A DNA stretch of 64,000 bases. Origin: Planotetraspora phitsanulokensis (GTDB taxonomy: Bacteria; Actinomycetota; Actinomycetes; Streptosporangiales; Streptosporangiaceae). The notes under the pieces are model-generated. The model saw only the letters and a list, made by a program, of their open reading frames with translations. It was not told where the DNA came from and made no database searches. The first letter of the stretch is position 1. Every line of letters begins with the position of its first letter. This document shows, piece by piece, positions 2 through 2,566 of the stretch. A program made the translations under genes and the position numbers. Location of the stretch: assembly GCF_016863295.1 (NCBI RefSeq), contig NZ_BOOP01000032.1, forward strand, positions 1 to 64,000, given 5' to 3'.

Positions 2-2566
2 TACAAGATCAACAAGAAGCTGGGCGTCCAGGGGGACATCACCCAGGGCACGCTGACCGACGAGGACATCGTCGCGATCGTCGAATACCTGGTGCGCCTG
101 CATGCCGGTGAGGTGTCGGAGGGCCTGCCCCTGGAGGTCGACGACATCGACCACTTCGGCAACCGGCGGGTGCGCAACGTCGGCGAGCTGATCCAGAACC
201 AGGTCCGGCTGGGCCTGGCCCGCATGGAGCGCGTCGTCCGTGAGCGCATGACGACGCAGGACGTCGAGGCGATCACGCCGCAGACCCTGATCAACATTCG
301 CCCGGTCGTGGCGTCGATCAAGGAGTTCTTCGGCACCTCGCAGCTGTCGCAGTTCATGGACCAGACCAATCCCCTGTCCGGGCTGACGCACAGGCGGCGT
401 CTGTCCGCGCAGGGTCCGGGCGGCCTGTCGCGTGAGCGGGCCGGCATGGAGGTCCGTGACGTGCACCCGTCCCACTACGGCCGGATGTGCCCGATCGAGA
501 CCCCCGAGGGCCCGAACATCGGCCTGATCGGCTACCTCGCCTGTTTCGCCCGGCTCAACGCCTTCGGCTTCGTCGAGACGCCGTACCGCAAGGTCGTCGA
601 CGGCAAGGTGACCGAGCAGATCGACTACCTGACCGCGGACGAGGAAGATCTGTACGTGATCGCCCAGGCGAACTCCCCGCTGTCGGCGGACGGCGAGTTC
701 GCCGAGCGGCGGGTGCTGGTCCGCACCAAGGGCGGCGAGTTCGAGTACGTCCGCTCGAACGAAGTGCACTACATGGACGTGTCACCGCGGCAGATGGTGT
801 CGGTCGCCACGGCGATGATCCCGTTCCTGGAGCACGACGACGCCAACCGCGCGCTGATGGGCGCGAACATGATGCGCCAGTCGGTGCCGCTGCTCAGGAG
901 CGAGGCTCCGCTGGTGGGCACCGGCATGGAGTACCGGGCGGCCACGGACACGGGCGACATGATCAGCGCAGCGAAGGCCGGTGTGGTGGAGGAGGTCTCC
1001 GCCGACTACGTCACCGTCATGAACGACGACGGCACGAGCACGACGTATCGGCTGGCGAAGTTCAAGCACTCGAACCAGGGCACGAGCTTCAACCAGAAGC
1101 CGATCGTGTCCGAGGGCGACCGGGTCGAGGTCAACCAGGTCATCGCCGACGGTCCCTGCACCGACAAGGGCGAGATGGCGCTCGGCAAGAACCTGCTCGT
1201 GGCGTTCATGCCATGGGAGGGCCACAACTACGAAGACGCCATCATCCTGTCCCAGCGCCTGGTGCAGGACGACGTCCTGTCCTCGATCCACATCGACGAG
1301 CACGAGGTCGACGCCCGCGACACCAAGCTGGGCCCCGAGGAGATCACCCGGGACATCCCGAACGTCTCCGAAGAGATCCTGGCCGACCTCGACGAGCGCG
1401 GCATCATCCGCATCGGCGCCGAGGTCACCAACGGCGACATCCTCGTCGGCAAGGTCACCCCGAAGGGTGAAACCGAGCTGACCCCCGAGGAACGGCTGCT
1501 GCGCGCGATCTTCGGTGAGAAGGCCCGCGAAGTTCGCGACACCTCGCTGAAGGTGCCGCACGGCGAGCAGGGCAAGGTCATCGGGGTGCGGGTGTTCTCC
1601 CGTGAGGAGGGCGACGAACTGCCGCCGGGCGTCAACGAACTGGTCCGCGTCTACGTGGCACAGAAGCGCAAGATCACCAACGGCGACAAGCTCGCCGGCC
1701 GTCACGGCAACAAGGGTGTCATCTCCAAGATCCTTCCCGTGGAGGACATGCCGTTCCTCGAGGACGGCACCCCGGTCGACATCATCCTCAACCCGCTGGG
1801 CGTGCCCGGCCGGATGAACGTCGGCCAGGTCCTGGAGACCCACCTGGGCTGGATCGCGGCCCGCGGATGGGACATCTCCGGCATCGAGGAGGCGTGGGCC
1901 GAGCGGCTGCGTGACAAGGGCTTCGAAAGGGTCGAGCCGCACACCAACATGGCCACTCCGGTCTTCGACGGCGCCCACGAAGAGGAGCTCATCGGGCTGC
2001 TCGACAGCACCGTCCCCAACCGTGACGGGGATCGGCTGGTGCAGGACAGCGGCAAGGCGCGGTTGTTCGACGGCCGTTCCGGCGAGCCGTTCCCGCACCC
2101 GATCTCGGTCGGCTACATCTACATCCTCAAGCTGCTCCACCTGGTCGACGACAAGATGCACGCTCGTTCGACCGGTCCGTACTCGATGATCACCCAGCAG
2201 CCGCTCGGCGGTAAGGCGCAGTTCGGCGGCCAGCGCTTCGGTGAGATGGAGGTGTGGGCCATGGAGGCGTACGGCGCGGCCTACGCGCTGCAGGAGCTGC
2301 TGACCATCAAGTCCGATGACGTGCTCGGCCGGGTGAAGGTCTACGAGGCCATCGTCAAGGGCGAGAACGTCCCCGAGCCGGGCATTCCCGAGTCCTTCAA
2401 GGTGCTCATCAAGGAGATGCAGTCGCTCTGTCTCAACGTCGAGGTGCTGTCCAGCGACGGCACGTCCATCGAGATGCGCGACACCGACGAGGACGTCTTC
2501 CGCGCCGCGGAGGAACTCGGCATCGACCTGTCCCGGCGTGAGCCGAGCAGCGTCGAGGAGGTCTGA
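2..2566 (+). CDS. rpoB: RNA polymerase beta subunit, 3' part of a probable second (paralogous) copy
   Basis: The frame is open from the left edge, so about 300 N-terminal residues lie outside; 854 residues are visible. The rifampicin region (about residues 109-142), the [11 protein letters not shown] motif, the catalytic-centre blocks and the SIEMRD C-terminal module are all recognisable. Visible residue number plus 396 gives E. coli numbering without gaps. On that scale D516, H526, S531 and I572 are normal, but N518 is Thr, L533 is Gln and S574 is Tyr, and the block after 574 reads YLACFARL instead of the usual SLSVYARV. These are positions linked to rifampicin resistance in other bacteria. 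The gene is followed by a hairpin and a minus-strand gene, not by rpoC, so it is not in the normal rpoBC operon. Function as a beta subunit is certain by similarity; the status as a resistant paralogue is inference. Confidence 0.95.

Follow-up and report, generated by a model that had tools for sequence, protein, structure and literature searches.

A second rpoB gene, away from rpoC and with a divergent rifamycin-pocket segment, in Planotetraspora phitsanulokensis

The second rpoB gene and its surroundings

The window, the 64,000-nucleotide stretch analysed here, runs from base 1 of contig NZ_BOOP01000032.1 (C32) in a genome assembly of 9.17 Mb and 95 contigs. Its first gene is an open frame of 854 codons, which matches Pfam RpoB domains 2, 3, 45, 6 and 7 and forms the 3' part, stop codon included, of a second rpoB gene (rpoB2). 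The frame starts mid-gene for no other reason than that the contig does. The 5' end of rpoB2 lies on the minus strand of contig C60, where query residues 3-117 match the housekeeping copy at 93% identity and the start codon is TTG, as in housekeeping rpoB; about 190 codons from the middle of the gene are unassembled between C60 and C32. Housekeeping rpoB is complete on contig C27 (a 1164-codon frame) with rpoC immediately 3' of it. This is the single rpoC detected, a search across the genome having found no second one, and a search for an Arr-type rifamycin transferase was likewise negative. The sequence-only reading had taken the window gene for a second rpoB without rpoC behind it. The frame, its domains and the ordinary rpoB-rpoC pair on C27 bear this out; the gene is not the sole rpoB of the genome, and its stop codon is followed by a hairpin and an opposing gene. 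The features are listed below, with residue changes numbered as in E. coli K-12 RpoB.

2..2566, plus strand: second rpoB, 3' 854 codons and stop, identified by the frame, the Pfam matches and the 5' end on C60
77..178, plus strand: divergent island 1, the beta-lobe hypervariable stretch (primary residues 332-369), with a four-codon deletion at about 124/125
365..367, plus strand: codon 518, T, identical in housekeeping rpoB
377..769, plus strand: divergent island 2, the fork/rifamycin-pocket stretch (primary residues 436-566)
410..412, plus strand: codon 533, CAG, L533Q
446..448, plus strand: codon 545, ATG, F545M, also in rpoB(R)
533..535, plus strand: codon 574, TAC, S574Y, also in rpoB(R)
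1883..2050, plus strand: divergent island 3 (primary residues 938-993, E. coli about 1141-1207)
2576..2617, plus strand: stable hairpin behind the rpoB2 stop, found by folding, terminator-like without a T-run
2681..3487, minus strand: VOC/glyoxalase-like gene facing rpoB2, outside the system, marking the missing rpoC

The 94-nt stretch that holds the hairpin folds at -59.6 kcal/mol (z -3.4). At the other end of the gene, a divergent 906-codon frame adjoins the rpoB2 start (L008:854-3574) and has no Pfam match at 0.001. In the first 20 kb of the window and on C60, no gene matches the neighbourhood of the second copies of G004, a genome of the same genus, or G171. Scattered matches without a common block do occur: window positions 17639-18049 are 75% identical to a gene near the G187 copy, and window genes match genes near the G193 copy at 54%. 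Neighbour blocks are common to second copies within species groups (G158/G177/G150/G168/G190; G142/G163; G166/G152), and the second copies of G004, G171 and G187 have two genes in common nearby, but on different sides.

Over their overlap, rpoB2 and the housekeeping copy are 90.3% identical in protein (771/854) and 89.4% identical in aligned DNA; the housekeeping protein is itself closest, among 80 named loci, to RpoB of Acrocarpospora macrocephala (96%). A contig that ends inside the gene, with the middle unassembled, is what a decaying or chimeric copy, or contamination, might leave behind. Such a relic or artefact is nevertheless very improbable: the frame is open, eight selected active-site positions are unchanged, and dN/dS is 0.11 against the G004 second copy and 0.10 against that of G171, a sign of purifying selection. 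Moreover, this second copy recurs in G004 together with its promoter type, and lone copies are complete in relatives assembled into very long contigs.

The promoters are predicted from the C60 sequence, where TTGACA-17-CATCCT and TGGACA-17-TATGCT lie upstream of rpoB2. The second contains the element GCGTGGACA...GTA(C/T)GCTC, set inside an imperfect GCGTGGA...TCCACGC dyad, which is matched at 11 of 25 second copies but at none of 7 primaries; in G004 it is present at the second copy and absent at the primary. Another 11 of the 25 second copies, that of G158 among them, carry a different type, GAGGTTGACACT...TGTGGAC...GCGTTATGCT, and three have neither. Four of the 36 upstream regions, in which the start rule found no start, were dropped from these comparisons, and for G170 the rule placed the start upstream of the true one. 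The leader beside the start codon is nearly alike in both paralogues. An element beside the first -35 resembles a TetR operator in this genome and is poorly kept in relatives. The second gene appears to have its own conserved promoter type.

Pocket residues of lone and rpoC-linked copies

Alignment to E. coli K-12 RpoB places T518, H526, S531, Q533, M545, Y574 and C577 in the window gene, with D516 and I572 unchanged, as had been read from the sequence for 516, 518, 526, 531, 533, 572 and 574. The gene also differs from the housekeeping copy by S577C, Y578F and G579A, and by the four-codon deletion in the beta-lobe near codon 41 of the window frame. Within this genome, only the second copy has L533Q and S574Y. 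The expected rpoC-linked partner with wild-type residues at 518, 533 and 574 was found and is unchanged at 533 and 574; at 518, it too has T.

For a wider survey, 143 rpoB copies were sorted by their downstream gene into 97 rpoC-linked and 30 lone copies, the remaining 16, cut off by the end of a contig or stretch, being left out. Two frame-shifted genes with rpoC behind them (L048, L090) were counted as rpoC-linked, and two loci that are apparently one contig (L044 and L136, both 195,801 bases) were counted once, giving 29 lone copies; a denominator of 96 stands for the linked genes with a letter at that position. S574Y occurs in 22/29 lone copies against 0/97 rpoC-linked genes, S577C in 23/29 against 0/97, a changed residue 533 (Q, V or I) in 6/29 against 0/96, H526N in 6/29 against 0/96 and N568S in 5/29 against 0/97; these frequencies are associations, neither unbiased nor independent, because most lone copies were selected for high similarity to the pocket fragment of the window gene, and copies are interrelated. 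Fisher tests on these counts take no account of that relatedness. L533Q and S574Y are not the norm among rpoC-linked genes. S531N is found in 18/29 lone copies, and H526 is kept in 23/29. A change at 533 is combined with S574Y in the window copy and that of G004 (both L533Q), in G171, G166 and G152 (L533V) and in G193 (L533I), as well as in G192 (L533V), whose gene lies at a contig end.

Three candidate marks were rejected. N518T, as a mark of resistance, fails: the genome's own rpoB has T, as do 62/94 rpoC-linked genes. F545M is not specific, rpoC-linked genes having M in 20/95, L in 12/95 and V in 4/95, and S531N occurs in 11 of 94-96 rpoC-linked genes, including six Streptomyces loci.

Some lone rpoB genes are not strong pocket variants: S574Y is absent in 7/29 lone copies. 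Among these, the lone copy of G330 is 99.7% identical in DNA to its rpoC-linked partner (L157, L178; both N531), the result of either a very recent duplication or complete conversion. Four lone or probable second copies without S574Y (L149, L151, L154 and L156, of G222, G148, G170 and G075) carry D516N or Q517H, which may be further alternative pocket changes. Separately, the rpoC-linked genes of Actinomadura formosensis (L052) and Amycolatopsis kentuckyensis (L118) have Q516, and that of the G292 primary (L176) has A516 with E518, possibly an alignment slip; these housekeeping polymerases may possibly be intrinsically rifamycin-insensitive.

The positions that most set lone copies apart (574, 577, 533, 568, 526) lie in or beside the rifamycin pocket, the tabulated positions being those of the pocket region and a few others. 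Lone copies also vary at 544, 545, 547 and 568, which we take to be streptolydigin or GE23077 territory. This variation fits self- or neighbour-protection against another fork-binding inhibitor (streptolydigin-, sorangicin- or GE23077-like), with the pocket tuned to the compound. The partly available report on Nonomuraea gerenzanensis also ties one rpoB(R) change to sorangicin (PMC5431353). Rough gene calling revealed no PKS/NRPS-sized frame in the 64-kb window (longest 854 codons) or in the first 20 kb of C60 (longest 906), which counts against this reading, and we consider it quite improbable.

The closest studied system is rpoB(R) of N. gerenzanensis, for which record NZ_LT559118 (isolate nono1, 11.85 Mb, two rpoB places, L192 and L194) served as the comparison. 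The record is labelled a plasmid but is evidently the chromosome, and we infer that the isolate is strain ATCC 39727 of the published work; G158 is N. gerenzanensis by protein, each of its two copies agreeing with the record in 1,150 of 1,150 residues, counted from the C-terminal end. At L192, the place in this record that does not front rpoC, the gene has H526N, S531N, F545M, S574Y and a six-residue lobe deletion. The accessible parts of the published descriptions give the same deletion (PMC5431353) and five changes, H526N, S531N, F545M, S574Y and M581D (PMC3536979), of which M581D could not be placed in the alignment.

From E. coli position 403 onward, 70 columns separate rpoB(R) from rpoB(S). 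In 28 of these, four being the lobe deletion, the R state is present in the window copy and absent from its housekeeping partner; the other 42, H526N and S531N among them, are not shared with rpoB(R). In 38 columns, including L533Q, the window copy differs from the housekeeping gene without the R letter. Both genes are lone copies away from rpoC (for Nonomuraea checked on G158) with their own upstream region, and both have F545M, S574Y, S577C, Y578F and the lobe deletion site. Unlike rpoB(R), the window copy is wild type at H526 and S531, carries L533Q instead, has lost four lobe residues rather than six, and has a different promoter type. Sharing 28/70 R columns but lacking H526N, the window gene is thus related to rpoB(R) and represents a subtype without that change. 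The earlier view that its substitutions are not the published set is right for the missing H526N and S531N; it does not extend to F545M and S574Y, which are shared. What is known is the kind, a natural second rpoB (merodiploidy) studied as rpoB(R); what is new is the different combination of changes.

A second rpoB is also described in Nocardia, where rpoB2 is dedicated to rifampicin resistance (PMC10719064). To judge by this published description, to which the likeness is owed, it resembles the window gene in being a second copy, but belongs to a different order. Reviews, in the portions available (including PMC10719064), state that the second rpoB of Nonomuraea and of Nocardia confers rifampicin resistance.

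In a search of the family, 68/341 genomes had two or more matched rpoB places and 71/341 had none, counts that are uncertain in both directions because copies were missed (rpoB is universal) and some pairs may be one split gene. Of the four other genomes of the window's genus, two show one copy, one shows two, and one, G001, lacks any rpoB match despite a completeness rating of 100%, presumably through an assembly gap. In the plasmid collection, eleven listed Clostridioides difficile records of about 97-150 kb (hits H5-H15) have an rpoB match and are plausibly mislabelled chromosome pieces, like the Nonomuraea record of that collection.

Homogenised background, divergent islands and the pocket segment

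The two paralogues were compared by DNA identity in 40-codon windows in 23 genomes that hold both. Many of the pairs combine long stretches at or near 100% identity with three recurrent troughs, wherein identity falls to 90% or less: residues 321-360 in the lobe (17/22 pairs), residues 521-560 (19/23) and residues 961-1000 (22/23), the last lying away from the pocket stretch along the sequence. The G171 pair is a clear instance, with dS and dN both 0 in codons 1-320, and dS of 0.59 in the lobe and 0.48 in the fork. In 22 of the 23 pairs the longest identical run within the genome (123 to 1,875 bp) is longer than any run shared with the primary of another species; as a control, identical runs between different species' primaries have a median of 93 bp and a maximum of 506 bp. 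The window's genome is the exception (74 bp within the genome versus 116 bp), the middle of its gene being unassembled, and no long homogenised tract exists among its assembled parts.

Third-position identities were also compared by region, with medians within genomes versus between species' primaries of 0.89 versus 0.78 in codons 1-320, 0.71 versus 0.82 in the lobe and 0.75 versus 0.79 in the fork. A second copy's nearest sequence is its own primary in 8/16 cases for codons 1-320, 0/16 for the lobe and 1/17 for the fork; homogenisation is thus common, not universal. Two matching breaks, near residues 55 and 424, interrupt each copy of G004, which a near-identical middle of the paralogues would explain. 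Similarly, the two rpoB alleles of Microbispora sp. ATCC-PTA-5024 have in common a central 1,774 nt without differences, at which the assembly broke, as stated in the part of the 2014 report at hand (PMC3900900), a tract that resembles those in the window's relatives and has no assembled counterpart in the window genome. The simplest reading of these patterns is gene conversion outside islands that would be under divergent selection. The available passages of the open-access literature on rpoB duplication contained no earlier description of the three islands.

The persistence of difference in the two islands outside the pocket, at residues 321-360 and 961-1000, fits a regulatory polymerase, whose main effect would be on promoter or elongation behaviour (stringent-like, in secondary metabolism or under alkaline or nutrient stress) and whose drug insensitivity would be incidental. 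Likewise, rpoB(R) of N. gerenzanensis changes antibiotic production and pH-dependent metabolism, according to the accessible sections of the report (PMC5431353). However, H526N, held in the available text to be essential for activating secondary metabolism in Nonomuraea (PMC3536979, PMC5431353), is absent from the window gene, and most lone-specific residues of the table, drawn mostly from pocket positions, cluster at the rifamycin pocket. We therefore regard a primarily regulatory role as unlikely, if by no means negligible.

The pocket segment of rpoB2 groups with other second copies and not with its own housekeeping rpoB. In the fork/pocket tree, ten second copies from five genera, that of the window among them, form a clade (support 99/98), which stands beside the N. 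gerenzanensis rpoB(R) group with weaker support (85/80), and the nearest fork neighbour of a second copy is another second copy in 16/17 cases. Pocket third-position identity between the window genome and G171, which belong to different genera, is 0.855 for the second copies and 0.709 for the primaries; between G004 and G171 the values are 0.824 and 0.709. The excess is hardly present with G166 (0.764 and 0.752) and absent with G219 (0.752 and 0.806), and within Nonomuraea (G171, G166) the second copies stand at 0.752 and the primaries at 0.861. Horizontal movement of at least the pocket segment between the window's genus and a Nonomuraea-like lineage appears to be the likeliest cause.

These observations may be joined in a tentative reading, to which we give somewhat less than an even chance as a whole. 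Lone rpoB genes would constitute a shared mobile pool of pocket cassettes passing between genera; recombination with the resident rpoB would then overwrite much of what surrounds the lobe, the fork/pocket and residues of about 940-1000, three islands that selection would keep intact. In the alternative pocket solutions S574Y would be joined by S531N, alone or together with H526N; by changes at 533, at 568 or at both; or by H526N and V518 on a wild-type S531.

A putative alternative beta subunit

In the best explanation as a whole, to which we assign a probability of roughly 0.6, rpoB2 would encode an alternative, pocket-remodelled and drug-tolerant beta subunit of RNA polymerase, transcribed from its predicted own promoters. 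Because one rpoC was found, its product, if assembled into polymerase, has to use the same beta' as the housekeeping enzyme, and presumably the same further subunits. S574Y and L533Q would remodel the fork/rifamycin pocket by a route other than the H526N, S531N and S574Y of rpoB(R), and the resulting polymerase would most likely be less sensitive to rifamycin-type inhibitors, transcribing while the housekeeping enzyme is blocked. The gene would come from the lone-copy pool of the Streptosporangiaceae, its pocket segment having probably moved between genera; in many relatives the resident rpoB would have overwritten much of the rest of the lone copy.

Work in E. coli bears on this explanation. 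In the parts available of a deep mutational scan, L533 is listed among the rifampicin-contacting residues; singly, S574Y and L533I are fit at 10 ug/ml but at no higher dose, whereas the double acts synergistically and resists 100 ug/ml, its MIC being 500 ug/ml (PMC7073797). S574Y also evolved under rifampicin in coculture lines, as related in the accessible text (PMC7392344). The sequence-only reading had called the changes at 518, 533 and 574 resistance-type. This stands for S574Y, selected or resistant in E. coli by itself and with L533I, and not for N518T, which is ordinary and present in the housekeeping copy. L533Q would act like L533I. Counting against the drug reading, H526 and S531, at which resistance fitness is highest according to the same excerpt of the scan (PMC7073797), are wild type in rpoB2, and the published double contains L533I, not L533Q. 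The lack of H526N also counts against the explanation, as does an excess of cross-genus pocket similarity that is seen with G171 but not with G219. The drug hypothesis is directly testable, because the combination of S574Y with a change at 533 resembles the synergistic E. coli pair.

The second rpoB studied so far has been explained largely through H526N, yet 23/29 lone copies keep H526. Function is better looked for in the common letters, since S577C (23/29) and S574Y (22/29) are the most shared of those tabulated. The homogenised background with its protected islands offers a natural map of the parts of the beta subunit that must differ to be useful. If the cassette reading is true, the inherited unit would be a drug-pocket module carried on a host-adapted subunit.
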